Shown here: positions 3,506-26,307 of the stretch, piece by piece
Layout: every line of letters starts with the position of its first letter
Numbering within the stretch: the stretch's first letter is position 1
DNA from: an uncultured Bacteroidales bacterium
Lineage (GTDB): Bacteria; Bacteroidota; Bacteroidia; Bacteroidales; WCHB1-69
NCBI GenBank assembly: GCA_900317715.1
Contig: ONHS01000007.1
Location: 1 to 64,000 of the forward strand
Direction: 5' to 3'
Length of the DNA stretch: 64,000 bases
Program-made: the position numbers and the translations under genes
Notes under the pieces: generated by a model
What the model was told of the DNA's origin: nothing
The model's input: the letters and a program-made list of their open reading frames with translations, nothing else
Database searches by the model: none

Positions 3506-3533
3506 AGAAAAACAACTAAAATATTATCAGCTG

Positions 3534-3541
3534 CAAAGATA
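3534..3541 (-). promoter_or_regulatory. -7 box of the hipBA-like operon (TATCTTTG)
   Basis: The minus strand reads TATCTTTG, a TAnnTTTG match, 29 bases upstream of the HipB-like start. It lies next to a weak ATATTATCAGC / GATAAT-like arrangement that could serve as an autoregulatory operator. Confidence 0.45.
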
Positions 3542-3552
3542 CATTTTTTTGA

Positions 3553-12100: not shown

Positions 12101-12255
12101 ACCTCCCACAGCGAACGGGTTCCCACGCGTTCCCATTGCAACGTGGAAAAGTCTCCGGTTTCCCAGTCTTCCACCATCTGCGGGGAATTTTGGGCTTGCA
12201 ACGACAATACACCGAGGATTACGGCCAATAAAGAAAACAGTAGCGGTCTCATCAT
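9106..12255 (-). CDS. Secreted M14 zinc carboxypeptidase with T9SS sorting domain
   Basis: About 1049 residues. I start at the ATG at 12255, 5 bases after the upstream hydrolase gene, because it gives a signal peptide (MMRPLLFSLLAVILGVLSLQ then AQ). Residues about 30-165 and 200-385 look like jelly-roll/cleaved-adhesin domains (each ends in a DDIxxxG or DDLTMP motif). The M14 domain spans about 500-790: zinc ligands in TMHGTEVVGYF (H571, E574) and VNFHCGAELLNYPW (H682), substrate-binding LNRNYPH, catalytic Glu in TIETSLTH (E764). A carboxypeptidase-regulatory-like beta sandwich follows (FWGVITDAVTHEPVEAMV), then a type A T9SS domain (YPNPANDYLML...GEYFLRV). It should cleave peptides at the cell surface. 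Operon placement behind the pigment-like genes is by position only. Confidence 0.9.
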   Translation of the reverse strand: MMRPLLFSLLAVILGVLSLQAQNSPQMVEDWETGDFSTLQWERVGTRSLWEVTSEGAHSGRYCVRSGNYYQDNIESVLQLSIYLTDSGTVSYFRKIFSAPGGGVFYFYLDGQAMDTLTGYADWAEYQCHVSAGYHVLKFCYRKNTNAKKGSDCVWMDDLTMPAGILLSPLSSPCDAPEGLTAQVTGNDVTLSWNGTYTSQTVTIFDDVESYDYGEINPSGDVGWRYIDGDGEPTSTFSSLNFLNEGATMAYIVLDDELIYGTGNNNMQAHSGHRFFGCPFHYTIHNDDWMVSPELHFSEAFTFSFYARSFSSQFADEQFVVAYSLTDSSAASFIPLHCDPITPTTTWTEYSFLVPPQAKYVAVHCISFNQYIFCLDDISIHGNVTTGHTVNVYRDGVLVASDIADSTYTDTSVAPGNHCYTITYNCSSNDESILSDTVCVTVGPVADALNATSKITANLDSISSMLQSRFSEREYIPEEALHPTRGERVDSSHIATTLEAMFDWNRYPSYDVYLQLLQHFQDSFPHLCRIDTILDTTPHPDLPHSIFAIHISNTLGQETTKPAFLYSSTMHGTEVVGYFLMLHLADYILNNATTDSAVMRILDNVDLYICPLENPDGTYHLSNDMISSSGGYSTYHNYNDVQLNRNYPHLPGLGTMANIQPETQAIIDYVTPKHFVMSVNFHCGAELLNYPWDSWTTSQRPHADADWFRYICQNYASLCHAQDTSFMYGSGGRVVIDGGDWYPVSGSRQDYMTYYQRCREVTIETSLTHVVTDPVKLQSFWTNTKDALLSYVMECDYGFWGVITDAVTHEPVEAMVKVLNHDKFHSEVFSHLPLGAYHRPIMAGTYTVEVSAPCYQTATFTVTTKPGTKVRCDVALQPQVLAPLAFDQYILPGMQTTIVALAEQEVRWYDSDTATLHIATGSYFTTPELYDTTTYYLEEVYQDDTLWCISPRSSVTVFVIDTTTNALTEHMDIPALKVYPNPANDYLMLESEGATITGIDVYDTQGKVVLRSHSDALTRVNVTALKPGEYFLRVTLGDGGVGVVRFVKR

Positions 12256-12260
12256 GGGAA

Positions 12261-13070
12261 TTATTTCGTCAATGTCCCTCTCAGCCACCGCAAAAAGGTC
12301 TCTGGCCAAGCCGACAGCTGCGCATCATCATATTTGGCCATCTTCTCGGGATTCACGCCGAAACCGTGCCCGCCCTTTTGGAGATACAGGTAATAGACAT
12401 TGGGCTTGTTCAGCGCATTCAGCGAGTCGGCCATCATCCTGGCGTTGTGCCAATCCACCGTGGGGTCGTCGTAGCAATTCAGCAGGAAGACGGGACAATG
12501 CACTTTGTCGGCGTGTAACTCCATTGACAAGGAATCCCACATCACAGGGTTGTGTTGTCTGCGCTCGCCCATGAGTCCGCGGCGCGAGCGCTTGTGCACG
12601 TACGGTTCGCGCATGGTTACCACCGGATAGATGGGAGCCACGAAATCGGGAGCGATGCTGTCGGGCAGCAGTTCCGCACCACTCAGCACTAAGTGGCCGC
12701 CGGCGGAGAAGCCCATCGCCCCGACGGTCTTGTACCCCTTCGATTTAACGGTTTTTAACGCTCCTTCCAGCGCTTCGAGCTGACCCGGGTATTGCGTGCA
12801 ACAACTCCGGCGGATGTGTGTAAACCACGACCACCAGCCAGACACAGGATATTCGAGCACGTAGGCGGCATAGCCGTTCTGGTTCAGCCACTGCGCCACC
12901 TCGCTACCCTCACCGCGCCTTGCCAACCAGTAGTAACTGCCGCCCGGGCATACGATCACGGCGGTGTCAGCTTTCCCTTTCTCGGGTAAAAATTCGGTAA
13001 GCTTCTGTGCGGAAACGTTGGTAAACAACATCATCGCACAAAACACAAACATCAAACATTTAAAATTCAT
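12261..13070 (-). CDS. Secreted alpha/beta hydrolase (BD-FAE/acetylxylan-esterase-like)
   Basis: 269 residues with an N-terminal signal peptide (MNFKCLMFVFCAMMLFTNVS then AQ). The alpha/beta hydrolase features are the oxyanion strand VIVCPGGSYYWLA (about 38-50), the nucleophile elbow GFSAGG (about 125), an acid in the NCYDDPTVDW loop and the catalytic histidine in GGHGFG. Enzymes of this shape deacetylate or de-esterify polysaccharides or small esters; the true substrate is unknown. It ends 5 bases before the M14 gene start and is very likely co-transcribed with it. Confidence 0.85.
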   Translation of the reverse strand: MNFKCLMFVFCAMMLFTNVSAQKLTEFLPEKGKADTAVIVCPGGSYYWLARRGEGSEVAQWLNQNGYAAYVLEYPVSGWWSWFTHIRRSCCTQYPGQLEALEGALKTVKSKGYKTVGAMGFSAGGHLVLSGAELLPDSIAPDFVAPIYPVVTMREPYVHKRSRRGLMGERRQHNPVMWDSLSMELHADKVHCPVFLLNCYDDPTVDWHNARMMADSLNALNKPNVYYLYLQKGGHGFGVNPEKMAKYDDAQLSAWPETFLRWLRGTLTK

Positions 13071-13260
13071 AATTCACAATTCATAATTATATCGCCGTCA
13101 CACATCATTCATCGTTTTTCATCGCATTATTCATCGAATCATCATATCATCACACGTCATACGTCATTCATCGTTTTTCATCGTTTCATTCATCGTATCA
13201 TCCCATCATCCCATCATCACATCATCGTATCATCGTATCATCACACGTCACACGTCAACT
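13071..13260 (-). repeat. ATCATCG/TGACGTG tandem tract running into the oxidoreductase gene end
   Basis: Read on the minus strand, the tract starts inside the last codons of the FAD oxidoreductase gene (TTGACGTGTGACGTGTGA encodes its Leu-Thr-Cys-Asp-Val-stop). It continues as GATGATACGATGATACG repeats for about 170 bases. No gene lies in it. Confidence 0.8.
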
Positions 13261-14746
13261 TCCTCACGATCCCGTCCTTCTCCCCCATCACTGCCTCGGC
13301 GGTCATCACCGCGGTGAGGGGGACGCCGCAACAGCCGTGGAGATAGACATTTTGGCCGGTCATGAAGAAGTTTTCGGCTTTGGTGCGGAGGGGAAGGTAG
13401 CCGGCGTATGGGTTGCGACTGTCCTTGAGCAGACCGTAGAGCGACCCGTCCGGTTCGTTAAAATAGTCGCGGACGGTGAGCGGGGTGGCGTCATAAAGAT
13501 GTTCCACACAATCGCGGAAACCCGGTCTGACCTTCTCCATCTTGTTCAATATCAGCTCTGTATGTTTGCTTTTCAATTCTTCATAATCCGAACCTCTTTT
13601 GCCCACAGTGGTATTGGCCCACTTCTCGCACATTGAAAATGGAGAAAATACAATCACCTGCACAGCGCGGGCAAACGGTCCTTGGTTCTCCTCGCACGGC
13701 GTGAAAAAGACGAAATTCTGTGGCCAATTCTCTTCTTCGTACTTTCCAAACTGCCAAACCTTATCGTAACTGTCCCAACAATAGCACGGATGGTTTATGT
13801 ACGGGAACGTGCCCTCTTTCAGCACCGCATAGACGCAGTAGGCCGAATAATTGTTCGGCGCGGACATCAACCACGTTCTGGAAGCCTTCGTAAACAACTG
13901 ATCACCTGTAACTTTCAGCAATGATTGCGGATGGATGGAGGAAACGACACAATCGGTGGCGAACGTCCTGCCGTCGGCGGTGGTCAGCGATAGCACCCGA
14001 CCGTTCTCCATCTGCATGGCGGTCACTTCGGCACAGGGGAGCACTTCGCCACCCAGTTCGCGAATCTTCGATACCAGTGTTTCTGCCAACTGTTCGGCAG
14101 GTCCTTCGAACCGCGAATGCGCTTTGATATACAGGTAGTTAATCAACGAAAACACGTAAGCAGGAGTATATCCAGCCTCGCCACCCGCCAACGGGCTCAG
14201 ATAAGCCAACAGACTGCGCAGTTTCGGATTCTGGACGTGGTCCGCAATGAAATCCTTCGACGACTGGTAGAAAACTTCGTCGCTGCTCGGCGAAGAGTCG
14301 CTGCCCGGACGCAAGAAAAAGAAATCCACCTGATCAGCCAACGCAAAGAGGTGATCCACATAACGTTGGATGTTCTCTTTCTCCTCAGGGAAAAGCTGCT
14401 GGAAATACTTCGTGAACGGTTCAATGCCCTGCGGAATCCGATACGTCATGCCATCTTCCAAACAGACCACCTCGTCGCCACAGTCTATATCCACCTGACG
14501 GAAATGCAGTTGGTCGAGGATGCCGAGGTAACGGCAGATGCGGTTGAGCGAGCCGCCCGGCTGCAAACCGCCCACCACGTGCATACCCGCGTCGAACGAC
14601 ACCCCGTTACGGGTGAACGACTGCAGTCCGCCTCCCACGTGCGCACTCCGCTCCAGGACAGTCACCTTGTAACCCTCCTTGGCCAAAAGCGCACCCGTGA
14701 ACAACCCGCCGATGCCGCCGCCGATGATATGAACGTGTTTTTTCAT
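13241..14746 (-). CDS. CrtI/CrtISO-like FAD-dependent oxidoreductase
   Basis: 501 residues from the ATG at 14746; the frame runs upstream but only this start puts the Rossmann motif at the N-terminus (HIIGGGIGGLFTGALLAKEG, residues 4-23, with the FAD glutamate at ER in VTVLER). A conserved FDAGMHVVGG, a mid-protein VVSSIHPQSLL, and a C-terminal FMTGQNVYLHGCCGVPLTAV fit the phytoene desaturase/carotene isomerase/retinol saturase family. In aryl-polyene and flexirubin-type loci such enzymes occur and probably act on the polyene chain. Its last five codons lie in a TGACGTG heptad repeat. It is the last core member of the cluster in transcription order. Confidence 0.85.
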   Translation of the reverse strand: MKKHVHIIGGGIGGLFTGALLAKEGYKVTVLERSAHVGGGLQSFTRNGVSFDAGMHVVGGLQPGGSLNRICRYLGILDQLHFRQVDIDCGDEVVCLEDGMTYRIPQGIEPFTKYFQQLFPEEKENIQRYVDHLFALADQVDFFFLRPGSDSSPSSDEVFYQSSKDFIADHVQNPKLRSLLAYLSPLAGGEAGYTPAYVFSLINYLYIKAHSRFEGPAEQLAETLVSKIRELGGEVLPCAEVTAMQMENGRVLSLTTADGRTFATDCVVSSIHPQSLLKVTGDQLFTKASRTWLMSAPNNYSAYCVYAVLKEGTFPYINHPCYCWDSYDKVWQFGKYEEENWPQNFVFFTPCEENQGPFARAVQVIVFSPFSMCEKWANTTVGKRGSDYEELKSKHTELILNKMEKVRPGFRDCVEHLYDATPLTVRDYFNEPDGSLYGLLKDSRNPYAGYLPLRTKAENFFMTGQNVYLHGCCGVPLTAVMTAEAVMGEKDGIVRKLTCDV

Positions 14747-14831
14747 TCTTTGATGTTTGACGTATGACGTTTGATTAGGTAAATGATGATCGTTATTACC
14801 CTCCAACCGTGTAACCTTTAACTACTAACTA

Positions 14832-17800
14832 CTAACTACTAACTGCTAACTTGTACCGTTCCTGATACTTCTTAAAATACCGCCAATACTCCTCTGTTTC
14901 CAAACGCGTGCAAATTTCCGCATAGTGTTCCTGGTAATAGTGGCGCATCTGCCTGGTTACCAGGCGGTCACGTTCACTGTCGGTGTCTGCTCCCACACTG
15001 TCATACGGGCGGACGCGCTCGGCTATTTCCAGATAGAGGTCGCCGCCGCGGAACAACAGTTCCTCCTTGGGCAGAACGTGTCCCATTCCGTGTATGAAAA
15101 TCGGGAGGATGTCGGCGTCTAACTCGCGTGCCAGCGCAAACGCCCCCTTGTGGAAGCGCAAAATCTCGCATTTTGGCGACCGCGTACCCTCTGGGAACAC
15201 GCAGATGGAGTAACCGCGCTCGTAAAGTTCGCGCAAACGCGGCAGATTCGTCTCCATACCATCGCTCACAGGATAGTATTCCGCCTTGCGAATCACCAAC
15301 CCATAAAACGGATTGTGCCACACCCAATCGTTAGTCAAAAAAACGATTTTCGGGGTAACCGACAGCAGACACAGCAAATCCAAATGGCTTTGGTGGTTCG
15401 AAACAATCACCGCCGGCTTCTCGAACGTTTCCCCTGTCAAATTGTTCATATCAAATTGAATATGAGGCAGATGATGAACACAAAAGGCGGCCATACGCTG
15501 CAAGAACGTATGATACTTCAACTTCTTCTCTTCCGTATTTTTCCCAAACATAAAATAGATGGCCGTATAAGGAATCAAGAAGAGGAAGAGCAGCAGGAAA
15601 CAGAATCCGCATAACAACGTATATGCAAAACGTTTGAGGGTTACAGGAGTCTCGCGCAACTGTCCGTTTTTCTTCGTCAGCCAATCGAAAAGGACAGGCG
15701 GCAGGAAGGAGGCCATCAACACCACCGTAACCATACCGATAATCGTAACCAAAGCCAACGACTGCAGGGCAGGGTGTTTCGCGACAATCAGACAGCCGAT
15801 GCCCGCGAACATGATGAGCGCTGAAATCACCACACTGTGCTTGTAAGAGGCCAACCGCGGCTTGCCCGTCGTGTATTCGTACAGCAGCCCTTCCGTAATG
15901 AAAATCGTGTAGTCGTCGCCTTGACCGAAAATGAACGTAGCCAAGATGATATTGACGATATTAAACTGAATGCCAGTCAGATGCATCAGTCCCAAAATCC
16001 AAATCCAGCCCACTGCCAACGGCAGGAAGGCAAGCAACGCCAGCTCAATTCGGCGGAAGGAGAAGAGCAGGAAAACAAAAACGACTATACCGCATACCCA
16101 ACCGATGTAATTGAAGGAATCGCGAAGCATATTCACCAACTGACGACCGAGGTCACTTCCCGAAAAAACAAACATTGATGGGTTCACACCATCAACCTTT
16201 TGATGAACGACTTCAGGCTGTTCCGTATCCACATAATTGACAATCCGATATCCATTTTCAATCGGGTAAATATACCTTAAAGTAAAAGGTTTAATAACAT
16301 CATTAAAATCTTCAATATCAGAAATTTCGCATTTACTAGAAATCAAATCAAAGAAGGATTGGAAAGCCTCTAACGAGAAGCCTTGGGCCACCGCTTCGCG
16401 CTCAAATTCATGCAGGATATGACGATGGGATTCTTCCTGCCAAAAGGCATTCCAACGGGCGGCAGCTTCCTTTTGACGTTGCTGCGAAGGTAGCATCTCC
16501 CCCACTCCGCTCACCGATGTCACCGCGTCGCAACGCTTCAGCAAAGACACCAACGAGTCGTTGCGATTCACCGCCTCCTGCAAGGTCTTCCCTTCCGCCA
16601 CCGCGTACATCATACCCGAAGCCTGCACTTGCGACAGAATCTCCAAATTCTCGCGCTGGGTCGGAGTCATGTAATTGATGTTCGAGAGGTCGCTGTCGAA
16701 GGATGTCTTCTTTGAAAAATAGCCAAGAATGATCGTGATTATCAATCCTATAAGGAGAATCCACGGACGGGCTTTGCTACGCGAAAGGTGCACTCCCGTC
16801 CACTTCCCAAACAGCAGATGTTCGGACGGCGCGGGACGTTTGCGCATAAACTGCGGCAGGAAAATCAGCACAAAGAGGATCGTCCCGACGAGCATCAAAG
16901 AGGCAAAAAGCCCGAGGTCCTGCATCGCGCGGGCATCGAGCCACAAAAGGCAGAAGAAAGCCGCCACAGTGGTAAGATTGCCAATAAACAGCGGCAAAAC
17001 CATCTCGCGGAGCGCCTCGCGACGGTCGCCGACTTCCTTGTATTCGTCGAGGAAGTGCAACGGATAATTCGCCACGATGCCGATAAGGACAGAACCAATG
17101 CCCAGCACGATAATGGAGACACCACCTCGGAAAACATAAATAGCCGCCAACGAAAAAAGCGCTCCGAACAGAATGGAGCCGCCCACCCAAAGGATGTCGG
17201 AAACACGCCGATAATGCAGCAACAGGATCAACAAAATCAGCACGACGGCAATGACCACCGCCAAGATGGAATCGTGCTTGATTTGCGTGGCATTGGTGGC
17301 CGCAATCAAGGGTGCGCCCACCGCCACAATCTCCACTTCTGGCATCTCTTTCTGGACATCCAAAGCTTTCTGTTCCAAATATTTAGAGAGCTTACCGTTA
17401 TTAAAACTTTCATTGGAGCCATAGGGACTGTCGAAGGTGACGAGACCGTGTTTCCCGTCAGCGGTAAAGAGGTATCCATCCACCACTTGGAAGGCATCGT
17501 TGAGCTTCAACGAGTTCAGACGCTGTAAGGTCGGGGTGAAGAGCTGCAGCGGATCCATGGGCAGCGTATGCATGATGGTACCCGCGACTGGGAACATCAG
17601 CAGCTGTTTGTCCTGTGCCAAACGACCCTGCACCATTCCCGGCGTTTGCAGAAGGGAATCCACGCGAGCGTAGTCCTCTTTTGTAAGCAGATACGGCAGA
17701 TGGGCATACACCGCATCCATGAGGTCGAAGACCTGCGTTTCGTCAACCGTAACACTCAGATTTTCAACCATGTCGCTTTCGGATAGGATGTCACCATATC

Positions 17801-18074
17801 TGGACATGGCTTCCTGAATGGTCTCTGTATCAACGGAATCGTTTTGGGGAGAAAAGACCACTGCAATTCGGCTCTGCGCGGCAAACTGCTGATAGACCTC
17901 CTGATATTTCTGGTTTTCCGCGCCAGAAGGGAGAAATCGCGCAATATCCTCCTCGTAGCGTACGCGCGACGCGAGGAACGCGAAGACAACAGTGAGCACC
18001 AACGCCATAGCGAGGGTCAGCCCGCGTCGCTTCTCCAAGAAGTCATATATTCGCAAAAAGAATCCAGTCATCAA
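14832..18074 (-). CDS. MMPL/RND exporter fused to a lysophospholipid-type acyltransferase
   Basis: 1080 residues. Residues 1-800 are an MMPL/RND-like transporter: a TM at 20-36, a periplasmic loop, a TM block at 270-410, a second loop 460-640, and a TM block at 655-800 containing FGQGDDYTIF (717-726), the usual acidic motif. After two more hydrophobic segments (815-845) residues 850-1060 form a PlsC-type acyltransferase with NHQSHLD (HX4D, 893-899) and FPEGTRS (960-966). Aryl-polyene clusters encode an MMPL exporter and acyltransferases as parts of the outer-membrane export route; here two are one chain. The final residues KLAVSS and the stop are encoded by a TTAGCAG/TTAGTAG heptad tract. A second ATG one codon in is possible. 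Confidence 0.9.
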   Translation of the reverse strand: MMTGFFLRIYDFLEKRRGLTLAMALVLTVVFAFLASRVRYEEDIARFLPSGAENQKYQEVYQQFAAQSRIAVVFSPQNDSVDTETIQEAMSRYGDILSESDMVENLSVTVDETQVFDLMDAVYAHLPYLLTKEDYARVDSLLQTPGMVQGRLAQDKQLLMFPVAGTIMHTLPMDPLQLFTPTLQRLNSLKLNDAFQVVDGYLFTADGKHGLVTFDSPYGSNESFNNGKLSKYLEQKALDVQKEMPEVEIVAVGAPLIAATNATQIKHDSILAVVIAVVLILLILLLHYRRVSDILWVGGSILFGALFSLAAIYVFRGGVSIIVLGIGSVLIGIVANYPLHFLDEYKEVGDRREALREMVLPLFIGNLTTVAAFFCLLWLDARAMQDLGLFASLMLVGTILFVLIFLPQFMRKRPAPSEHLLFGKWTGVHLSRSKARPWILLIGLIITIILGYFSKKTSFDSDLSNINYMTPTQRENLEILSQVQASGMMYAVAEGKTLQEAVNRNDSLVSLLKRCDAVTSVSGVGEMLPSQQRQKEAAARWNAFWQEESHRHILHEFEREAVAQGFSLEAFQSFFDLISSKCEISDIEDFNDVIKPFTLRYIYPIENGYRIVNYVDTEQPEVVHQKVDGVNPSMFVFSGSDLGRQLVNMLRDSFNYIGWVCGIVVFVFLLFSFRRIELALLAFLPLAVGWIWILGLMHLTGIQFNIVNIILATFIFGQGDDYTIFITEGLLYEYTTGKPRLASYKHSVVISALIMFAGIGCLIVAKHPALQSLALVTIIGMVTVVLMASFLPPVLFDWLTKKNGQLRETPVTLKRFAYTLLCGFCFLLLFLFLIPYTAIYFMFGKNTEEKKLKYHTFLQRMAAFCVHHLPHIQFDMNNLTGETFEKPAVIVSNHQSHLDLLCLLSVTPKIVFLTNDWVWHNPFYGLVIRKAEYYPVSDGMETNLPRLRELYERGYSICVFPEGTRSPKCEILRFHKGAFALARELDADILPIFIHGMGHVLPKEELLFRGGDLYLEIAERVRPYDSVGADTDSERDRLVTRQMRHYYQEHYAEICTRLETEEYWRYFKKYQERYKLAVSS

Positions 18075-18190
18075 ACTTTCTATATCTTTATCTGCCTAGA
18101 CTGCAACACATTAAAAAAAAAGCAGCCCTTTTCTCAAAAGACTGCAAACATACATAAAATTTTTGAAAAAAGGGTTACGCGGTTAGGCGG

Positions 18191-18955
18191 TTATCGTTGT
18201 AAGGAGCGAAGCAGTTTCACGGGAAGATAATATAGCAGCGCTCCGAAAGTGAGAATGCTGTTGAGCACGCTGATGCGGAAAAAATCCCAGAACGGGCGGA
18301 AATGGCTCACGCGCTCGCCCTCAGGCGGGTAATACACGCGCACGGGCACGGAGGTCACGGGCACGCCACGCCATGCGGAGAAGACAAGTAGCTCTAATTC
18401 AGCCTCATAACGCGGCGTAATCGGCCATTTTAAGTTGATTTGCTCCAACGGGTATATTCGATAGCCACTCTGCGTGTCTTCCAAGCGAATACCTGTTTGC
18501 AAATGAAACCAGAAGTTGGAGAATTTGTTCGCAAAGGTGTTTTTGGAGGGCATATTGTCGGCGGTGAGGTTGCGAGAGCCCACCACAAGAGCATCCTTAT
18601 TCGCTAAGTGACAGTCCATTACAGAAGGAATGTCCTCGGGGAAATGCTGTCCATCGGAATCGATGGTGACAGCGTAGCGATAGCCCAATTCCAACGCCCG
18701 GCGGAAACCCTGCATCAGCGCGTAGCCCTTTCCCCTATTGGGGGAATAGTCAACCATTTCGGGCATTTCCGAAGCATCGAAAGCAGCGGATAGGGCTTGC
18801 ATCGTGGCAGGCGTGCTACCATCGTTCACCACAATGATGTTGCGCGTATAGGCACGGATGCGACGCAACACATCCACAATCGTCCGCTCGTTGTTGTACG
18901 TCGGCACGATCACGCACGCACGCTCGCCATCGAAAATCGCCGCCCAGTCCTTCAT
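18191..18955 (-). CDS. GT2 family glycosyltransferase (DPM/DPG-synthase-like)
   Basis: 254 residues, cytoplasmic or membrane-associated. It has the GT-A start VIVPTYNNERTI (15-26), nucleotide-binding VVNDGSTP, the metal motif DSDGQH (about 97-102), and ED...GYRIYP acceptor-side residues. A hydrophobic C-terminal stretch may anchor it. Such GT2 genes occur in aryl-polyene loci, where one component carries a GT2 and an acyltransferase domain. Its start overlaps the stop of the dehydratase gene by 4 bases, so the two are translationally coupled. The sugar and acceptor cannot be told from sequence. Confidence 0.85.
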   Translation of the reverse strand: MKDWAAIFDGERACVIVPTYNNERTIVDVLRRIRAYTRNIIVVNDGSTPATMQALSAAFDASEMPEMVDYSPNRGKGYALMQGFRRALELGYRYAVTIDSDGQHFPEDIPSVMDCHLANKDALVVGSRNLTADNMPSKNTFANKFSNFWFHLQTGIRLEDTQSGYRIYPLEQINLKWPITPRYEAELELLVFSAWRGVPVTSVPVRVYYPPEGERVSHFRPFWDFFRISVLNSILTFGALLYYLPVKLLRSLQR

Positions 18956-19305
18956 GATACGATCTTGAAAATGAGTGAAAACTTGGTGAAAACACGCCCC
19001 TCGGAAGCAACCGTTCCCTTGATCGTCAGGAGATTATCGTCCTCCTCCAGCTTGTCGAACACTATTTCAACTAATTCTTTAGATGGACGCAATATATCTA
19101 TGTATTTCAATACTTTAACGTCAGATAAATCCAGTTTCTTCCCACTGCGTTTTTCCGCCAATTCTCCGATAATACCAACCTGGCACACCCCCGGTGTCAC
19201 AGGATTGCCTGGAAAATGCGCTTTAAAAATCTCGCTATCGGGATTCAATTGTATACGGACCGTATTGCCCGTTTTTTCAATTATCTTATACAATTCGCAA
19301 TTCAT
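18952..19305 (-). CDS. Hot-dog 3-hydroxyacyl-ACP dehydratase (FabZ/ApeI-like)
   Basis: 117-residue single hot-dog domain. The active-site histidine sits in AHFPGNPVTPGVCQVG (about residues 29-44), the FabZ/FabA signature. The length suits a small ApeI-type subunit, not full FabZ (about 145). It should remove water from the 3-hydroxyacyl-ACP made in each elongation cycle. In E. coli-type aryl-polyene systems two different hot-dog subunits form the dehydratase; the second candidate here is at 24576-25010. It overlaps the GT2 gene by 4 bases. Confidence 0.85.
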   Translation of the reverse strand: MNCELYKIIEKTGNTVRIQLNPDSEIFKAHFPGNPVTPGVCQVGIIGELAEKRSGKKLDLSDVKVLKYIDILRPSKELVEIVFDKLEEDDNLLTIKGTVASEGRVFTKFSLIFKIVS

Positions 19306-19445
19306 AATTCATCATAATTCATCGTCATTCATCGTATCATCGTATCATCATATCATCGTATCATCATATCATCGTATCATCGCATCATCATCCGCCATTC
19401 ATCGTCATTCATCATACGTCATACGTCACACGTCATACGTCACAC
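19306..19445 (-). repeat. ATCATCG/GATGAATGAC tandem tract inside the cluster
   Basis: A run of CATCGTATCATCG-type units followed by CGTCATACGTCACACG units fills the spacer between the LolA-like and dehydratase genes. It is the same low-complexity type as at 13.1, 20.1, 25.0 and 53.4 kb. No ORF and no clear promoter box. Confidence 0.75.
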
Positions 19446-19459
19446 ATCGCAGCAGTACC

Positions 19460-20077
19460 TCAGGAATTCAATTTCATGTTGGTGAACGTAATCGTGGTCA
19501 TATCGCCGTTCGCCTCTTTCATTTCCACCTTGGTCACGGCATTGTGTTTGTCGTTGAAATAGAGGTGGATAGAGGTGAACATCTTCTTCAGTTTGGGTTG
19601 TTTCGGGGTGAGTTTGGCTACCCATTGGGTGCCTTGGGTGTACATCTCGACGGTGAAGTCGCCGCTGTTGGAGAGGGCTGTTCCCGTGACGCTGCCCATC
19701 ACAATTTGCGCGATGCCCTTGAACAATTGCCCGCTCTGTCCGTCGGCCTTCTTGGTCTTGCCATCTTGCTGAATGTAAACCTGTTGCTGTCCGTTTTCCT
19801 CCTTCACGACAAGCGCAAATTTGTTGGGTTCGGTGTATTCCCATTTGAGGTTTTTGCCTGAGAAGGACATCTTGCCTTTGGAGGTCTGCTTCTCCTTGAG
19901 CATGGTGGATTGTCGCACCTGCGTGAAGTCGCATTGGATGCTCTTCACCGCCGACGTGGCCTTGTTGATGGTTTCCACCATCTTCTTCGACTGCTCAGGG
20001 GTGGCAGGTTTGAGGGATTGGGCTGAACCTCCAAACCACAACGCTATCAACATCAATAATATCGTTAATTTTCTCAT
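19460..20077 (-). CDS. LolA-like outer-membrane lipoprotein carrier
   Basis: 205 residues from ATG at 20077, chosen because the upstream Met codons (MNMTMN) lie in the GATGAATATG repeat tract and this start gives a signal peptide (MRKLTILLMLIALWFGGSA). The mature part has the LolA half-barrel pattern: KSIQCDFTQVRQSTML, GKMSFSGKNLKWEYTEP, then FTSIHLYFNDKH. LolA carries lipoproteins through the periplasm. Versions inside aryl-polyene clusters are thought to ferry the lipid-linked pigment, working with the MMPL exporter. Context supports that second role. Confidence 0.88.
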   Translation of the reverse strand: MRKLTILLMLIALWFGGSAQSLKPATPEQSKKMVETINKATSAVKSIQCDFTQVRQSTMLKEKQTSKGKMSFSGKNLKWEYTEPNKFALVVKEENGQQQVYIQQDGKTKKADGQSGQLFKGIAQIVMGSVTGTALSNSGDFTVEMYTQGTQWVAKLTPKQPKLKKMFTSIHLYFNDKHNAVTKVEMKEANGDMTTITFTNMKLNS

Positions 20078-20131
20078 ATTCATCGTCATATTCATCGTTT
20101 TTCATCGTATCATCGTATCATCGCATCATCT

Positions 20132-20183
20132 CCTAGGGCTCGCTACGCTCACCCCAGGCTAACATAGGTCGGGCTTTCAGCCC
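20132..20183 (-). repeat. Two-hairpin intergenic repeat, copy 1
   Basis: On the minus strand a GGGCTGAAAGCCC hairpin is followed by GACCTATGTTAGCC and a second hairpin CCTGGGGTGAGC...GAGCCCTAGG. The same order and linker recur at 44121-44171, and a diverged copy lies at 22634-22695. It lies between the EamA-like and LolA-like genes and could act as a processing or attenuation site within the operon. Confidence 0.75.
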
Positions 20184-20192
20184 TCTTTGGAT

Positions 20193-20543
20193 TCACTGCG
20201 CCACAAAATAGCATCCCGCCATGATCAGCAGCACCCCGATCCAGCGGGTGGCAGGGACCGTTTCGTGGAAGATCAGCACGGCGGCGATCATCCCGAAGAC
20301 GTAGCTCAGCGATATGAGCGGATAGGCGCGGGAGAAGGGGTAGTTTTTGAGGATGTGCATCCATAACACCGCACCAGCCCCGTACGCGGCACCACAGCCA
20401 AGCCACCACCAGTTGGTCAATTGCGACACAAAGAACGAGCCTTTCCAAGCGAACGTTCCCATCTTTTGCAAGGCGAATTTCAGGAACACCTGCCCGGAAC
20501 ACAAAAGAATAGACTGGATAATGGCCAAAACGATTAGTCTCAT
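20193..20543 (-). CDS. EamA/DMT-family small membrane transporter
   Basis: 116 residues with four predicted TM helices (about 2-22, 43-62, 70-92, 96-115), the size of half an EamA protein or an SMR subunit. The N-terminal LAIIQSILLCSGQVFLKFAL and the C-terminal RWIGVLLIMAGCYFVAQ fit the EamA/DMT fold. It probably works as a dimer. Its start overlaps the chain-length-factor stop by 4 bases, which ties it to the cluster, perhaps for flipping a lipid-linked intermediate; that role is inference. Confidence 0.8.
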   Translation of the reverse strand: MRLIVLAIIQSILLCSGQVFLKFALQKMGTFAWKGSFFVSQLTNWWWLGCGAAYGAGAVLWMHILKNYPFSRAYPLISLSYVFGMIAAVLIFHETVPATRWIGVLLIMAGCYFVAQ

Positions 20544-21160
20544 AACGGTTTTTTAATGATTTCGGCACGGTCTTCCGCACCTTTCTGGTGAATAATTCTC
20601 ACGTTTTCAAGCTCATACAGCGGGTGGTCACCCGGTTCGACCGAGAGCATCCACGCCTCGGAACGGTCAGCATACTCCATCTGTCCGAAGAAGTGCGGGT
20701 GTTGATGCTGGAACTCCGTGATTTCGTCGTTGGCGCTGACCAAAGCCGTGCGCAGACGGCCCGTCCGCAGCTGCAGCCACGCATCTTGCAAAGCGCACTC
20801 AAACGAGATGGTGCGGTGCGCGTAGGTGTTGTTATAGCCGTGATTGCACGTGTGGATCGCGATGAGCGAAGCCACGGTGTTGTGCGTCGATTGCATGAAC
20901 GCCGTGGGCATATTCACCGCCTCACCCTCCTGCTCCAATCCTTTCAGCAGCTGCACAGAATGCTCCATACAGCCCATCGCGGTGCCGTTCAGGATGGCAT
21001 CAGGCTGATCTGTACCGCTGATTTCCATCGCTTTCAACGCCGTCACGAGGGCACGTTTCTGCAATTTTCCCATCCTGCGCGCCTTCATGGGCGGCAAGTA
21101 GCGGTTATACTCCTCCGCCGGCACATCTTTCACGATAGCCGTCACATACACCTTATTCAT
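20540..21160 (-). CDS. Beta-ketoacyl synthase chain-length factor (KS-beta)
   Basis: 206 residues, a half-length ketoacyl-synthase-fold protein of the KS_2/CLF type. Recognisable are PPMKARRMGKLQKRALVTAL, ILNGTAMGCMEHS and FMQSTHNTVASLIAIH, the last standing where true KS proteins have the active Cys; no nucleophilic Cys is present there. In aryl-polyene synthesis this subunit (ApeC type) pairs with an active KS (ApeO type) to set chain length. Its start lies 8 bases inside the 3' end of the adjacent KS gene, as expected for a KS:CLF pair. Confidence 0.85.
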   Translation of the reverse strand: MNKVYVTAIVKDVPAEEYNRYLPPMKARRMGKLQKRALVTALKAMEISGTDQPDAILNGTAMGCMEHSVQLLKGLEQEGEAVNMPTAFMQSTHNTVASLIAIHTCNHGYNNTYAHRTISFECALQDAWLQLRTGRLRTALVSANDEITEFQHQHPHFFGQMEYADRSEAWMLSVEPGDHPLYELENVRIIHQKGAEDRAEIIKKPL

Positions 21161-22328
21161 AGCGCGATAGAATTATGGACGAATCATTGCCGCCGAACCC
21201 GAAAGCGTTGCACATCACGTGGCGAAGTTCCCCACGCGGACACTCGCTTCCCGAAACTGGCGTAATGCATTGTTCGTCAGCAGTTTCAAATTCAGTTTGA
21301 GTGGGCAAAAACCCGTTGCGCATCGCCAAGAGGCAGAAAACCGCCTCTATAGAGCCCGACGCACTGGTAGTATGCCCCGTATAGGATTTGGTGGATGATA
21401 CCGGCGGCACATTCCCGCCAAACACCCGACGCAGTGCGGCACTCTCCGACGCATCGTTGTTCGGGGTGCCCGTACCATGCGCGTTCACGTAGCTGATGTC
21501 GGACGAGGTCAATCCTGCTTCCGCAAGCGCTTGCGTCATAGCCAAGTAGGCACCTTCGCCATTTTCCGACGAGGCTGTCTGGTGGAAAGCATCGCAACCG
21601 TTCCCCACTCCGCTGAGCACGCCGAGAATCTCCGCTCCACGCTTCAGAGCAGGACTTTCGCGTTCCAGTACAAGGTAGGCAGCCCCTTCACCGAGGTTCA
21701 ATCCTGAGCGAGTTTTGTCGAACGGACGACAACGCTGGGTGTCCAAGATCATCAGCGACTTAAAGCCGTTGAGATGGAACAGCGACAACGCCTCCGCACC
21801 GCCCGCCACCACAATGTCGCGTTCGCCAGATTCAATCAGCAACTTGCCCATAATCAGCGCATTCATCGCGGAAGAGCAAGCCGTGGAGGAGGTCATCGTG
21901 TAGTCGAAACAGTCGAAGTAGTCGACAATTTCGTTGGTGGAAGCACCGCAATCGTGGATGTCACGACCCGTGGTCTGCGGTTCAGGGAAGTAATGTTCTG
22001 TAACGTCCATACCGCCGACCGTCGTGCCGGAGATGAGCGCCAACCCGCTCTGCTGCAGCAGTTTCGACTGCTCCAGCGCCTCCTTCAACGCCAGTACACC
22101 CAACAGATGGGTGCGCGAATATACGCCCGCAGGCAACGCCAAACGCTCCAGCAATTCCTCGCCGCTCATCGGCACTTCCCCAACGGGAAACTCCCGATGC
22201 TCTGTGGGCAGGTAGCGTACGGTACGCACGCCCGATTCGCCTCGCAGCAGGGCAGCACAGTTCGCCTCCGCCCCGATTCCGAGCGCGGAAACCACCCCCA
22301 TGCCGGTTATGACCACCCGATCACGCAT
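21153..22328 (-). CDS. Beta-ketoacyl-ACP synthase (KAS II type, KS-alpha)
   Basis: 391-residue condensing enzyme that extends an acyl-ACP with malonyl-ACP. Full catalytic triad visible: Cys in TSSTACSSAMNAL, His in YVNAHGTGTPNND, His in STKSYTGHTTSASG. The N-terminus VVITGMGVVSALG and C-terminus NAFGFGGNDSSIIL are canonical. It starts 1 base inside the upstream ACP stop and its 3' end overlaps the chain-length factor, so ACP-KS-CLF form a tight unit. Corresponds best to ApeO-type KS. Confidence 0.93.
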   Translation of the reverse strand: MRDRVVITGMGVVSALGIGAEANCAALLRGESGVRTVRYLPTEHREFPVGEVPMSGEELLERLALPAGVYSRTHLLGVLALKEALEQSKLLQQSGLALISGTTVGGMDVTEHYFPEPQTTGRDIHDCGASTNEIVDYFDCFDYTMTSSTACSSAMNALIMGKLLIESGERDIVVAGGAEALSLFHLNGFKSLMILDTQRCRPFDKTRSGLNLGEGAAYLVLERESPALKRGAEILGVLSGVGNGCDAFHQTASSENGEGAYLAMTQALAEAGLTSSDISYVNAHGTGTPNNDASESAALRRVFGGNVPPVSSTKSYTGHTTSASGSIEAVFCLLAMRNGFLPTQTEFETADEQCITPVSGSECPRGELRHVMCNAFGFGGNDSSIILSRYE

Positions 22329-22585
22329 TATTTCGTGCGGTTTGCAGCCACATAATCAGCCATCGTGCGCATAGAGGCGAAAATCTCCTTACCCTGTTTC
22401 GGGTCGGAAATCTTGATGCCGTAGTTGCGTTCCAACAGCACGATCAGCTCCAACACGTCGATGGAGTCCAGGCCGAGACCTGCATCGCCAAACAACGGTG
22501 CATTGTCATTGATATCGGCAGGCGTCATCTCTTCGAGGTTCAACGCCTCAATCATTTTGGTTTTTAATTCTTCGATCAATTCCAT
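22328..22585 (-). CDS. Acyl carrier protein 1
   Basis: 85-residue ACP. The phosphopantetheine attachment site is GLDSIDVLELIVLLE with Ser in LDSID (about residue 41). It overlaps the KS start by one base and is presumably its partner. This cluster carries a second ACP at 25947-26189. Confidence 0.92.
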   Translation of the reverse strand: MELIEELKTKMIEALNLEEMTPADINDNAPLFGDAGLGLDSIDVLELIVLLERNYGIKISDPKQGKEIFASMRTMADYVAANRTK

Positions 22586-22633
22586 ATTATCGTTATTTTT
22601 GTCATTATCATCGTATCATCGTCGTTATCCGTT

Positions 22634-22695
22634 CCAGGGGTTTCGCTGCGCTCACCCCTGGCTACCAAGCTCTTGCCCCTAACGGGGCTGCTCAA
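22634..22695 (-). repeat. Two-hairpin intergenic repeat, diverged copy 2
   Basis: The minus strand reads an AGCCCCGTTAGGGGC hairpin, a short linker with TTGGTAGCC, and a hairpin CCAGGGGTGAGC...ACCCCTGG. Order and core (GGGGTGAGCGCAGCGA) agree with the copies at 20132 and 44121. It sits between the half-size KS-like gene and ACP 1. Confidence 0.7.
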
Positions 22696-22699
22696 GGAA

Positions 22700-23290
22700 T
22701 TATGTTTTAAAAATGTTTGGGCTTGACACATTCATAATTCTTAATTCCAATTCCGCCTCGTACTCCGTCTCCGACACGGCCTCCACCCATCCTGTCAGCA
22801 CGCTGGTGGTCTCGCCGTCCATAAATGCGCGGTCAATCGCTTGGTTCATGGCCTCCTGCGATTTTTCGGGCAGGAGGATGAAGCTGCTTTCGCCGTGGTA
22901 TTTGTTGCGGATGGCGATTTCGCCGGTGACGATGTTGGGCAGCGTATAGACAAACACCGACGGCGAGGGGTAGAATTCCTCCGTATTGGCGATCGTGCGC
23001 TGGAACGTGCGGTCGGCGTTCAGCGAGGAGTTGCGGTTGAAGAGGATCACGGCACGGTCGGCACGCGGCACGAAGCGCTCCCCTCCCTCTTCATTCAACA
23101 AAATCTCCGATGCGATGAAGCCCACCTTGCACAACACGTCCATCTTGAAGAATTTCGGGTAGTCCATATTGAACTTGCGGTACAGCATCGTCAAGAACGA
23201 ATCGCCCGCGACGGCCTCCGCCACGCGCTTCCCGTTCACATCCAAGAACTTCGGAGTCAGTTTGACTGTATGTTTTACCTTCGTGTTCAT
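22700..23290 (-). CDS. Half-size ketosynthase-fold protein of unknown function
   Basis: 196 residues. The phrases MDVLCKVGFIASEILLN, AVILFNRNSSLNADRTFQ and PSVFVYTLPNIVTGEIAIRN place it in the thiolase/ketosynthase fold: the FNR.SSL and YTLPN..TGEIAIRN strands correspond to KS segments around the active site, but there is a Tyr-Thr-Leu-Pro where a Cys nucleophile would be. So it is probably non-catalytic, either a second chain-length or scaffold subunit. It lies between the two KS genes. Similar orphan genes occur in Bacteroidota pigment-type loci; its exact job is open. Confidence 0.7.
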   Translation of the reverse strand: MNTKVKHTVKLTPKFLDVNGKRVAEAVAGDSFLTMLYRKFNMDYPKFFKMDVLCKVGFIASEILLNEEGGERFVPRADRAVILFNRNSSLNADRTFQRTIANTEEFYPSPSVFVYTLPNIVTGEIAIRNKYHGESSFILLPEKSQEAMNQAIDRAFMDGETTSVLTGWVEAVSETEYEAELELRIMNVSSPNIFKT

Positions 23291-23299
23291 TTATTTTTC

Positions 23300-23427
23300 A
23301 AACTTTGAACTTTGAACTTTGACTTTGAACTTTGACTTTGAACTTTGACTTTGAACTATAAACCGTATACCCTAAACCCTAAACTCTAAACCCTAAACTC
23401 TAACCCCTAACCTCAATAACCCATAAC
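23300..23427. repeat. TTTGAAC and CCCTAAA heptad tract
   Basis: TTTGAACTTTGACTT units (7 bases) run from about 23300 to 23360, then change to CCCTAAACTCTAAA units up to the end of the KS gene at 23428. The plus strand resembles telomere-like CCCTAAA but is degenerate. It fills the spacer inside the cluster. Confidence 0.8.
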
Positions 23428-24579
23428 CTATAACCCATAACCATTAAAAGAAGCAGCCGCGTTGCACCCTCCAAAACCGGACAACAATTTCACGAACGCA
23501 CGCTTCTGTGTGTCAATGGGTTCCGATGTAACCAGCACGGGCTGAGTGACGCCCAGCTCGTCGAAGCCGCGGGTGGCGGGCACTTTGCCATCCTCCAAAG
23601 CGCGCATCGTGAGCAGGGTTTCCAAGATGCCGGCGGCCCCGAGCGTGTGCCCGTAGTAGCCCTTCATGGCATTCACGGGGACTGCGTTCAGACCCGCGCG
23701 GTTGATGGCGATGGATTCCATCTCATCGTTGTACATCGTGGAAGTTCCATGCACGTTCAGACAGGCTAAATCATTGGCGGTCAGACCGCTATCGTTGAGT
23801 ACGGAGCAGAGTGCGCGGTAGCTACCCTCGCCCGTGCGCGACGGTCCGGAGATATGGTTCGCGTCGTTACGCACCGCACCCGCCAGCATCCGCCAACCGT
23901 CGGCGGAGTCGTCCGCCACCGTATAGACCACCGCGGCGGCGGCCTCTCCGAGGTTCAGCCCACGACGATTCGCGCTGAACGGTCGGCACTGCTCGTCCGA
24001 CAACGCCTTCAGCGACTGGAAGCCCGCCACGATGAACGGCGACAACACATCCGCGCCAATCACCACGGCAGCGTCGTATTGTCCCGACATCAAACAACGA
24101 TACGCCTCAATCTGTGCGCACAATCCTGATATACAAGCATTTGACACTGTAATCGGCATATTCGGATTTCCGAAAAAGTTCGCCATCCTCTGAGCCGTAT
24201 GCGCAGGCGTAACACGCTCTAAATCAAGATTCTCATCTGCCAGCAACTCCACATTGCCTTTGGTTGAGGAGAGAATGAAGATCACTCGCTCAGATTTCGG
24301 ATCTATTCCGCTCTGTTTCACCGATTTAACAGCAGAAAGCAGAGCTATTTTCTCGAATTTAGTACGAAATGAGGCGACAACATTTGCACTCAGTTCGCGT
24401 GCCAATTCGGCCTCCAATATCTCATCGGGAATCAGCGACACAAAGCAGGGGAACGGCAGATTCCACAACGATTCGTAACGGCGCAGCTCAGAACGTCCAT
24501 TCATTACAGACTGGAAATTCTCCTCCACCGTGAAACCGAGCGGACTAATGATACTCTCCCCTATCTTCTTCACTATCAT
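23428..24579 (-). CDS. Beta-ketoacyl-ACP synthase 2 (ApeR-like)
   Basis: 383-residue KAS-type condensing enzyme. Catalytic residues: Cys in TVSNACISGLCAQ, His in NVHGTSTMYNDEME, His in MKGYYGHTLGAAG. The N-terminus (SIISPLGFTVEENF) lacks the usual VVITG motif but aligns. In E. coli-type aryl-polyene clusters a second, homodimeric KS (ApeR) probably starts or assists chain growth; this is the best candidate. Its start overlaps the stop of the dehydratase-like gene by 4 bases. Confidence 0.9.
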   Translation of the reverse strand: MIVKKIGESIISPLGFTVEENFQSVMNGRSELRRYESLWNLPFPCFVSLIPDEILEAELARELSANVVASFRTKFEKIALLSAVKSVKQSGIDPKSERVIFILSSTKGNVELLADENLDLERVTPAHTAQRMANFFGNPNMPITVSNACISGLCAQIEAYRCLMSGQYDAAVVIGADVLSPFIVAGFQSLKALSDEQCRPFSANRRGLNLGEAAAAVVYTVADDSADGWRMLAGAVRNDANHISGPSRTGEGSYRALCSVLNDSGLTANDLACLNVHGTSTMYNDEMESIAINRAGLNAVPVNAMKGYYGHTLGAAGILETLLTMRALEDGKVPATRGFDELGVTQPVLVTSEPIDTQKRAFVKLLSGFGGCNAAASFNGYGL

Positions 24580-25010
24580 GACTCTACCCTTTCTCCTGAT
24601 ACGGTTATTTTCAATTCCGCCGACGCAATCAGTCGATTCTCCACAAACGACTCGGCGGACACTAATTTCATATCAAAAACATCTTCCAGCACGGTCATGC
24701 GAGTAACCAAGGTCTCCCCCACTTTCGGCACCTCATCAATGTGCATTTTCTTAATGGAGCCTATGTACCCCACTCTCACGCCTTTCGCGCCCTTCAAGCA
24801 TTTGTCCACATAGCCCAGCTGTGCCGCACACGTCTGCGCCATATTCTCGATGATCGCATACGCCTTCAGCGCACCATCTTCCACGAAAATATTATCCTGA
24901 CGAATAACCAGCGCCGTCTCCGCCGACTTTTCATCAGCAGAAACCAGCCGGTCCACCATCACCATGGGTGGTTGTTGCGGCAGAAGTGCCCGTATATCAA
25001 CCTCTTGCAT
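24576..25010 (-). CDS. Hot-dog dehydratase, ApeP-like
   Basis: 144 residues from the ATG at 25010 (MQEVDIRALLPQQPPMVMVD). Earlier in-frame Met codons up to 25067 lie in a GATGAATG repeat tract and are unlikely starts. LPQQPPMVMVDRLV, then AYAIIENMAQTCAAQLGY, and IGSIKKMHIDEVPKVGE fit the ApeP/FabZ-like hot-dog group; the usual HFPG histidine is replaced, as in ApeP-type subunits that pair with ApeI. It should act with the 18952 gene product as a two-subunit dehydratase. Overlaps the KS gene by 4 bases. Confidence 0.8.
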   Translation of the reverse strand: MQEVDIRALLPQQPPMVMVDRLVSADEKSAETALVIRQDNIFVEDGALKAYAIIENMAQTCAAQLGYVDKCLKGAKGVRVGYIGSIKKMHIDEVPKVGETLVTRMTVLEDVFDMKLVSAESFVENRLIASAELKITVSGERVES

Positions 25011-25054
25011 ATTCATCGTCCATTCATCGTTATTCATCGTGCATTCATCGCCCT

Positions 25055-25936
25055 TCATTCGTCCCAAAATTCGTAATAGTTAAACCACTGCTCCGGATAC
25101 TCCCGCAGCACCTCCTCCAGATGTCCCACATACTGGCGGACGTAAGCGTTTATACGGTCATTCCTGGTCTCGCCCTCTTTCTGTAACCTGTTGACATACA
25201 CCTTATAGCGTTTTGCCGAGGCTTTCATCACGTTCACGGTGAGCACGGGCAGGTCGCGTTGCGCCGCGAGGGCGAAGGGTCCCATCGGGAAGCGGGCGGG
25301 TGCAGCCAAGAAGTCGCATGTCACCGTGCGCTGCTTGCCCACCAGACGGTCGCTCGGGAAGCTGACGCTCTCTCCGTTGTCAAGCGCATCATTGATCAGG
25401 AAAAGGTGCGACAAATCATTCTTCACAGGGATGATGCGGATGTTGGTATTCTCGAAAAGCCGCTGGCGATTCTCCACAATGGCCTCAGCCTCTTCACCGA
25501 AAGCGAGCGCGTTGAAGCGTTTCTTCGTCGCCACCAACGTATAACCAGCCAGCTCATAGCAGCCGACATGCGCACTGAGAATCATGAAACCGGGATCCTG
25601 CTCGGCCAATTCCTGATAAAGGTGATAATTTTCCACTTCCACATCGAACTTTCCGCCGCTGAACATATAGAAGCGGTCGAGGATGACTTGTGAAAAGCGA
25701 CAAAAATTGTGATAAACGCCAAAAAAAGCTTTCAAAGGACGACGACCCAGTCTCTTCGTATAATAGTGATACATAGGCTTATAGCCCTTTGAAAACGCAA
25801 AATAGAAAGGTATCACGAAAACGGCCACAAAACCGTAAATCAGTCGCAGGGGTACATGTCGTACGATATGCACGAGGCTCCTGTGCATCCACGAGGTTCC
25901 GTCGGTTCCGCCTTGCCAAGCCCGTTCCTGCGCCAT
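25055..25936 (-). CDS. LpxL/HtrB-like lysophospholipid acyltransferase
   Basis: 293 residues from the ATG at 25936 (MAQERAWQGGTDGTSWMHRS), which begins 10 bases after the ACP stop and matches the usual 'W.G...G...' opening of these proteins; the longer frame overlaps the ACP gene. One N-terminal TM (VPLRLIYGFVAVFVIPFYF). The HX4D-like motif is SAHVGCYELAGY with H and E, then DRLVGKQ and GPFALAAQRDLPVLTV. It should transfer the polyene or fatty acyl chain to a lipid, as proposed for ApeD-type enzymes. Part of the cluster's first transcribed genes. Confidence 0.88.
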   Translation of the reverse strand: MAQERAWQGGTDGTSWMHRSLVHIVRHVPLRLIYGFVAVFVIPFYFAFSKGYKPMYHYYTKRLGRRPLKAFFGVYHNFCRFSQVILDRFYMFSGGKFDVEVENYHLYQELAEQDPGFMILSAHVGCYELAGYTLVATKKRFNALAFGEEAEAIVENRQRLFENTNIRIIPVKNDLSHLFLINDALDNGESVSFPSDRLVGKQRTVTCDFLAAPARFPMGPFALAAQRDLPVLTVNVMKASAKRYKVYVNRLQKEGETRNDRINAYVRQYVGHLEEVLREYPEQWFNYYEFWDE

Positions 25937-25946
25937 GCGAGAGGTT

Positions 25947-26189
25947 TTAGGCCACCTTGGAGGCAATGTAATCGTAGAACTGGCCCAATGTCTTCACCGT
26001 CTTCATCTCCTCCGGCTTGATCTTGAAGCCGAATTGCTTCTCCACAATGACCACGATATCCACAAAATCGAGGCTGTCGAGGCCCAGATGCTCCTTCAAC
26101 AGAGCCTCAGGTTTCAGTTTTTCCTCGTCAATTTCCAGTTCGTCAATCAAAAAAGCATTCACTTTTTCTTCAATTTCACTTCTATCCAT
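25947..26189 (-). CDS. Acyl carrier protein 2, first gene of the cluster
   Basis: 80 residues from the ATG at 26189 (MDRSEIEEKVNAFLIDELEI), with the carrier site GLDSLDFVDIVVIVEKQFG (Ser about 39). The frame extends to 26252 but the extra residues are not ACP-like. A -7 box at 26240-26247 lies 51 bases upstream, so this gene leads the pigment-like operon that runs down to at least 13.2 kb. Confidence 0.92.
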   Translation of the reverse strand: MDRSEIEEKVNAFLIDELEIDEEKLKPEALLKEHLGLDSLDFVDIVVIVEKQFGFKIKPEEMKTVKTLGQFYDYIASKVA

Positions 26190-26239
26190 ATTGATTTGCA
26201 AACAGTTACCAAAAGTATTACTATTTAAAATATCGGCGG

Positions 26240-26247
26240 CAAAAATA
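26240..26247 (-). promoter_or_regulatory. -7 box of the polyketide-like cluster (TATTTTTG)
   Basis: The minus strand reads TATTTTTG upstream of ACP 2. No other convincing box is seen between the cluster genes, so this is the likely main promoter. Confidence 0.5.
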
Positions 26248-26307
26248 CGCAAAATTATCGAAACATCCGATTGTTTTTTTGAAACCTGAAACTTGAAACC
26301 TGAAACT

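Follow-up and report, generated by a model that had tools for sequence, protein, structure and literature searches.

The region at positions 13241-26252 of the window, by which we mean the whole stretch of 64,000 nucleotides analysed (positions 1-64000 of contig C61 of the Bacteroidales genome G000), is in our reading the core of a flx-type aryl-polyene locus that is dispersed in this lineage, and we put the probability of this at roughly 85%. Judged by its gene families, the product would most likely be a lipid-linked aryl polyene made from tyrosine. The host genome is one bin of 3.14 Mb in 138 contigs, rated 100% complete with 1.27% contamination; in a search with the ketosynthase KS2, the nearest named records come from metagenome bins of rumen and gut, and the best of them (KS2 identity 91%) is named 'uncultured Bacteroidales bacterium'. 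All 14 genes that an initial annotation of this DNA had listed are present, in the same order and on the minus strand, most of them with Pfam or NCBIfam support, and the interval 13241-26247 indeed holds no reductase, lyase, thioesterase or methyltransferase gene. The features are as follows.

26240-26265, minus: two promoter-like TAnnTTTGC motifs (26257, 26247) before ACP1, from a motif scan
25947-26252, minus: ACP1, first acyl carrier protein (PF00550, E 1.8e-11; DSLD motif)
25055-25966, minus: LpxL-like lipid acyltransferase (PF03279, E 6.4e-12)
24576-25067, minus: ApeP-like hot-dog protein, putative dehydratase (FabZ-type NCBIfam match, E 2.7e-9, under cut-off)
23428-24579, minus: KS1, catalytically complete ketosynthase (PF00109/PF02801; top PDB match ApeO 6qsp_A)
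22700-23290, minus: half-KS, 196 aa, N-terminal thiolase half lacking the active-site Cys, from its predicted fold
22328-22585, minus: ACP2 (NF006617, 84.6 bits, cut-off 70)
21153-22328, minus: KS2, ApeO-like elongating ketosynthase (PF00109/PF02801)
20540-21160, minus: CLF, ApeC-like half-ketosynthase (PF13723, E 1e-16)
20193-20543, minus: EamA-type small membrane protein (PF00892)
19460-20095, minus: LolA2, flexirubin-type periplasmic carrier (NF053544, 174.5 bits, cut-off 125)
18952-19305, minus: ApeI-like hot-dog protein, putative dehydratase (PF22818, E 5.5e-5, under cut-off; HFPGNP motif)
18191-18955, minus: GT2 glycosyltransferase (PF00535, E 1.6e-18)
18144-18152, minus: promoter-like TATGTTTGC before the MMPL gene, from a motif scan
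14832-18074, minus: MMPL exporter fused to a PlsC-type acyltransferase (PF03176 and PF01553)
13241-14806, minus: FAD oxidoreductase, CrtI/amine-oxidase type (PF01593, E 4.4e-18)
12261-13070, minus: alpha/beta hydrolase (esterase), the cluster's next gene in relatives (PF00326)
5837-7168, minus: FlxY, 4-coumarate-CoA-ligase-type starter enzyme (NF053551, 682.8 bits, cut-off 520)

The 14 core genes mostly overlap or are tightly packed, and all of their reading frames are intact; the likely start of ACP1 is at 26189. The Cys-His-His set is visible in the sequences of both KS1 (with the cysteine within NACIS) and KS2, and a motif scan found intact serine motifs in ACP1 and ACP2 as well as the motifs of both acyltransferases. 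The KS2 profile matches ApeO 6qsp_A (E 6.8e-76) and 7f28_B. Among the hot-dog proteins, the ApeI-like one matches 6qsr_A (E 6.3e-5) and the ApeP-like one has weak PDB matches that include 6qsr_B (E 0.067); overall, the matches of both are weak.

Functions that the core lacks are encoded elsewhere in the same genome, as one of two alternatives in the initial annotation had supposed for the reductase and the starter enzymes: FlxA, FlxB, a FlxC-like ketosynthase and FlxJ are all present on other contigs. A search of the genome for short-chain reductases outside the window, which had been suggested as a check, gave a top match of 205.9 bits on contig C8 (next match, 126.7), directly 3' of an aromatic ammonia-lyase gene. 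The two genes match flexirubin equivalogs, the reductase being the ketoreductase FlxB (NF053542, 400.1 bits, cut-off 340) and the lyase the tyrosine ammonia-lyase FlxA (NF053541, 839.2 bits, cut-off 700). C8 terminates 2 bases past the FlxB stop codon, and its exact 99-base end is common to C129. On C129 there follow a FabB-like ketosynthase (KS3), whose PDB matches include ApeR-type 7f27, and FabD. A methyltransferase on C68, with a 69% match to the cluster methyltransferase of Segatella albensis, is FlxJ (NF053543, 578.1 bits, cut-off 560). C8, C129 and C68 are tied to the window contig by their common bin only, and a comparison of contig ends found no common end that would join C8 to the start of the window contig.

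The gene 6 kb downstream of the core, previously labelled a PaaK-like ligase, does encode a ligase, but the label has to be replaced by FlxY according to NF053551; a PaaK-like ligase in phenylacetate metabolism is ruled out by its 683 bits to FlxY and scores below the PaaK cut-offs. The C8 lyase can likewise be dismissed as a histidase, since the HutH model stays under its own cut-off and FlxA lies above; a separate ammonia-lyase on C77, with a higher Pfam score than the C8 lyase, is probably the histidase. A housekeeping FabG serving the cluster is superfluous because FlxB is present. The substrate-pocket stretch of the C8 lyase reads LQYNIILSHS, which we take to be HAL-like; an assayed FlxA was also reported with a HAL-like motif 1 (PMC3992019, in the part covered). 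Just after FlxY, at 2040-5045 of the window, a HipA-type kinase gene and a WG-repeat/AbiEii-type gene give the appearance of a toxin-antitoxin island that came in between FlxY and FlxA. Contig C81 of the same genome (from L160 onward) carries, besides a ketosynthase, two large frames (2446 and 2475 aa), both of which encode a pair of AMP-binding domains; by its domains it holds an NRPS/PKS-like cluster.

To place the locus among its relatives, window proteins were mapped onto 20 stretches from other relatives and onto 80 named loci, the latter drawn by KS2 profile (80 out of 563 confirmed relatives); flanks of the named loci extend no further than 10 kb or the end of the contig, and genes in them were located by tblastn. 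The order in other Bacteroidales is lyase-reductase-KS3-(FlxJ)-ACP1-LpxL-ApeP-thioesterase-KS1-half-KS-ACP2-KS2-CLF-EamA-LolA2-ApeI-GT2-MMPL-FAD, a consensus from which individual loci may lack some genes. The 80 named loci contain KS3 in 49 cases, FlxB in 42, FlxJ in 57, the thioesterase in 46, FlxA in 14, FlxY in 12, the FAD oxidoreductase in 46 and the alpha/beta hydrolase in 35, and the five nearest to the window (L076-L080) all lack FlxA, FlxB and KS3. Loci of Segatella, Hoylesella, Prevotella and Alloprevotella share the core gene order of the window; Segatella, Prevotella jejuni and Alloprevotella have FlxB, KS3, FlxJ and the thioesterase in the cluster, whereas these are displaced or lost in the window's clade (22 of 100 genomes, with KS2 identities of at least 63%, all of one genus). 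The cultured relative Segatella albensis DSM 11370 carries FlxB, KS3 and FlxJ along with the core.

Within this clade, FlxA occurs alongside KS2 in 19 of the 22 genomes and was not found in the other three, which are 87-91% complete. In four of these 19 (G028, G025, G001 and G005) both genes lie on one contig, 9.9-25.6 kb apart, and in the three that were examined (G028, G025 and G001) the core is followed by FlxY and FlxA. A nearby ketoreductase or tyrosine ammonia-lyase in relatives, just outside the window, had been named beforehand as the finding that would speak against a cluster devoid of these functions, and G028, of the same genus, has both right behind the cluster: ACP1-...-FAD-esterase-FlxY-FlxA-FlxB-KS3 in one 20-kb stretch. 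In G014 and G021 the series FAD-esterase-FlxY-FlxA-FlxB-KS3-FlxJ is on a different contig from the core. With a head position in other Bacteroidales, a tail position in G028 and a separate contig in G014 and G021, it looks as if the FlxA-FlxB-KS3 block shifted from the head of the cluster to its tail and drifted off later. Locus L073 (contig C45 of G003) has FlxA-FlxB-KS3-FlxJ in a row, 86-94% identical. In a quick tree, the cluster of the window's clade (13241-26252) groups with Prevotellaceae-type loci and that of the same-genus G015 (L052) with its own family (starred branches); this split inside one genus suggests that the cluster was horizontally replaced.

Apart from being dispersed, the locus has lost functions. 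A search of the own genome for the cluster thioesterase (4HBT) was negative at E<=1. In a control, that query strongly matched (E<=1e-25) 34 of 100 relatives; the 22 clade genomes are not among these, six of them having weak matches only, at 21-25% identity. Deletion of apeK in E. coli abolished the pigment only in part (PMC8253772, in the part covered), so loss can be tolerated; the thioesterase is a usual flx-type member but not an established requirement. This loss across the clade, together with the physical dispersal of the pathway genes, would also fit a polyene lipid without a tyrosine start, made with housekeeping FabG and another starter, with FlxA, FlxB and FlxJ as leftovers; G003 (89% complete), which keeps FlxA, FlxB, KS3 and FlxJ and in which no KS2 orthologue was found, fits as well. 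We consider this improbable, because FlxA is intact, shows 88-94% identity across the 18 closest matches listed from the genus and is kept with KS2 in nearly all clade genomes, and because FlxY scores above its cut-off near the cluster and accompanies FlxA downstream of the core in G028, G025 and G001.

The flx-type aryl-polyene reading does not extend to flexirubin itself. All flx markers tested (FlxA, FlxB, FlxJ, LolA2 and FlxY) are present at equivalog level, as in the flexirubin clusters of Chitinophaga pinensis and Flavobacterium johnsoniae, and a Flavobacterium-like flx cluster (G305) holds a KAS III gene inside, so that one might suspect a complete flexirubin pathway whose dialkylresorcinol genes lie elsewhere in the genome. 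This is very unlikely, as the KAS III families PF08541 and PF08545 are unmatched in the own genome at E 0.001 and were detected in 11 and 10 of 14 control genomes, respectively. Without a DarB-type KAS III, the organism would make no dialkylresorcinol and would therefore not be a full flexirubin producer; since this dialkylresorcinol feature was tested and not found, we file the region as a flx-type aryl-polyene locus and not as a flexirubin cluster. In G000, although rated complete, no KAS III (FabH) domain of either model, which would start fatty-acid synthesis, was thus found; this may reflect an assembly gap. That the core is a functionless, decaying remnant, as its break-up, the lost thioesterase and the repeat-filled spacers might suggest, is less credible still, given 14 of 14 intact reading frames with catalytic motifs and a KS2 that is 74-94% identical to those of 19 further members of the genus.

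The presence, family, location and motifs of the genes come from the data themselves; the activities, substrate, product and outer-membrane site given below are inferred from gene families and from work on other organisms (PMC3992019, PMC8358021 and PMC11885536, each in part), including assays of Chitinophaga pinensis FlxA and FlxY, studies of the ApeO-ApeC and ApeR ketosynthases and the link of LolA2 to flexirubin-type loci, respectively. FlxA on C8 would deaminate tyrosine to 4-coumarate, which FlxY (5837-7168) would convert to the CoA ester. Malonyl units, supplied via FabD, would then be added by the FabB/ApeR-like KS3 on C129, by the ApeO:ApeC-like KS2:CLF and probably by KS1:half-KS; FlxB would reduce every keto group, and dehydration would be the work of the ApeI/ApeP-like enzymes. 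Double bonds would accumulate because the cluster contains no enoyl reductase gene. Methylation of the ring probably falls to FlxJ on C68. Two acyltransferases, LpxL-like and PlsC-type, would attach the polyene acid to a lipid, GT2 would glycosylate the lipid-bound polyene, the MMPL protein would export it and LolA2 would carry it to the outer membrane.

A less described feature of the locus is its second ketosynthase/half-ketosynthase pair. CLF has as its top PDB matches the ApeC structures 6qsp_B (E 5.5e-5) and 7f28_A (E 0.046), and its Arg-Arg pair R28-R29, which does not vary across the 16 rows compared, agrees with an ape-type half-size CLF; a surface pair Arg30-Arg31 is described for AbApeC (PMC8358021, in the part covered). 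The half-KS has no Pfam or NCBIfam match at the thresholds used, no significant PDB match by sequence (the best, at E 0.72, being the ishigamide CLF chain) and a pairwise BLAST E of only 0.085 to CLF. Because these sequence searches gave nothing significant, its assignment required a predicted fold. The AlphaFold model (pLDDT 82.8; residues 91-120 low) has as its top Foldseek match the ishigamide CLF 6kxf_B (E 8.6e-8, TM 0.70-0.72 on the query); in VIA-align many N-terminal ketosynthase halves fit equally well, with largely tied Z of about 13-15, and ApeC 6qsp_B scores 13.6. Going by the model, the half-KS has the fold of an N-terminal ketosynthase half. In an alignment of 17 rows, of which L050 and L127 represent one genome, none of its invariant columns is a cysteine. 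A phylum-wide search found it in 27 of 296 genomes, the two weakest of which (G371, G224) match only partially, within long frames, so that we do not regard them as half-KS.

In the window, KS1, half-KS, KS2 and CLF are four separate genes. Among the 80 named loci, to which fusion counts are confined (two further fusions, in L035 and L040, stem from short stretches and were left out), KS1 and half-KS share a reading frame in 35 of the 71 loci with both, and KS2 and CLF in 42 of 79, as compared with 2 of 72 for half-KS and ACP2, 0 of 77 for KS2 and ACP2 and 0 of 71 for KS1 and KS2. On a quick LG+G4 tree of KS1 plus KS2 (85 rows: named loci with both, 13 further loci and the window), the fusion state changes at least 13 times for KS1/half-KS and at least 11 times for KS2/CLF, so fusion or splitting arose repeatedly. 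Such fusions are good evidence, short of proof, that a ketosynthase and its half-ketosynthase are partners, and we propose that the half-KS is the chain-length factor of KS1. Because both pairs are repeatedly fused in relatives, two separate condensing enzymes are suggested, and on balance we favour the view that Bacteroidota flx/aryl-polyene systems use two KS-CLF heterodimers beside the FabB-like KS3, namely KS2 with the ApeC-like CLF and KS1 with a second half-KS resembling the ishigamide CLF, as separate condensing machines with their own chain-length roles. We recognised no description of the second pair in the literature, represented mostly by titles and the openings of abstracts; five putative ketosynthases are named, unpaired, in the portion covered of PMC3992019. 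The double arrangement frames a concrete, testable question, namely what determines the chain length of aryl polyenes in Bacteroidota.

Compared with known systems, these genes make up a familiar pathway that has been split up, largely ordinary save for its dispersal and the lost release enzyme. The flx cluster has a similar complement of five KS-type genes, dehydratases, acyltransferase, glycosyltransferase and exporter (PMC3992019, in part), and the Flavobacterium-like G305 shares the core order of the window and ends in FAD-...-FlxY; unlike the flx cluster of C. pinensis and F. johnsoniae, the window organism lacks the dialkylresorcinol KAS III and the thioesterase and keeps FlxA/FlxB/KS3 and FlxJ off the cluster. 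With the proteobacterial ape clusters of Xenorhabdus doucetiae, Acinetobacter baumannii and Escherichia coli CFT073 it has in common an ApeO:ApeC-type ketosynthase with half-size CLF, an ApeR-type FabB-like ketosynthase, two ACPs, ApeI/ApeP-like dehydratases, MMPL, a LolA-like carrier and acyltransferases, but its starter would be tyrosine via FlxA/FlxY instead of 4-hydroxybenzoate, and the KS1:half-KS pair is extra. An LpxL-like acyltransferase also lies inside the Bacteroides vulgatus aryl-polyene cluster that holds BVU_1014 (PMC5850320, in the part covered). The other alternative raised at the outset, a product unlike known aryl polyenes, finds no support in the gene content, apart from the missing dialkylresorcinol half and thioesterase. 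Read from the cluster alone, a normal aryl-polyene pathway can seem novel, here because starter and reductase genes have moved off the core in one rumen clade. As aryl polyenes ranked second by number among the classes of biosynthetic gene clusters when rumen genomes were surveyed (2,800 of 14,814; PMC8241843, in part), it matters for product prediction which of them keep their starter genes elsewhere.

Several smaller observations concern the genes and spacers of the locus. In 23 of the 57 named loci that have both genes (e.g. L087, L126), one reading frame spans GT2 and the beginning of the MMPL gene, and Prevotella-type loci often have two FAD oxidoreductase genes. An M14 zinc carboxypeptidase with a type IX secretion tail, at 9106-12309 of the window, is next to the esterase (3') in G025 too. 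The TAnnTTTGC motif is presumably the Bacteroidota-type promoter consensus; a single leader promoter had been annotated for the cluster, and motifs do precede ACP1, but the further motif before the MMPL gene argues against a sole promoter, so that the core genes could possibly form two transcription units. The spacers at 19317-19437, 20090-20160, 22640-22690 and 23300-23400 are filled with short tandem repeats of the TCATCGTA, CTTTGAA and TTAACCC types. Spacer repeats also occur at L041:4800-4950, and a dispersed element with CCCCGTTAGGGG is likewise found in spacers in or near the cluster; repeats and element alike could promote the rearrangements.
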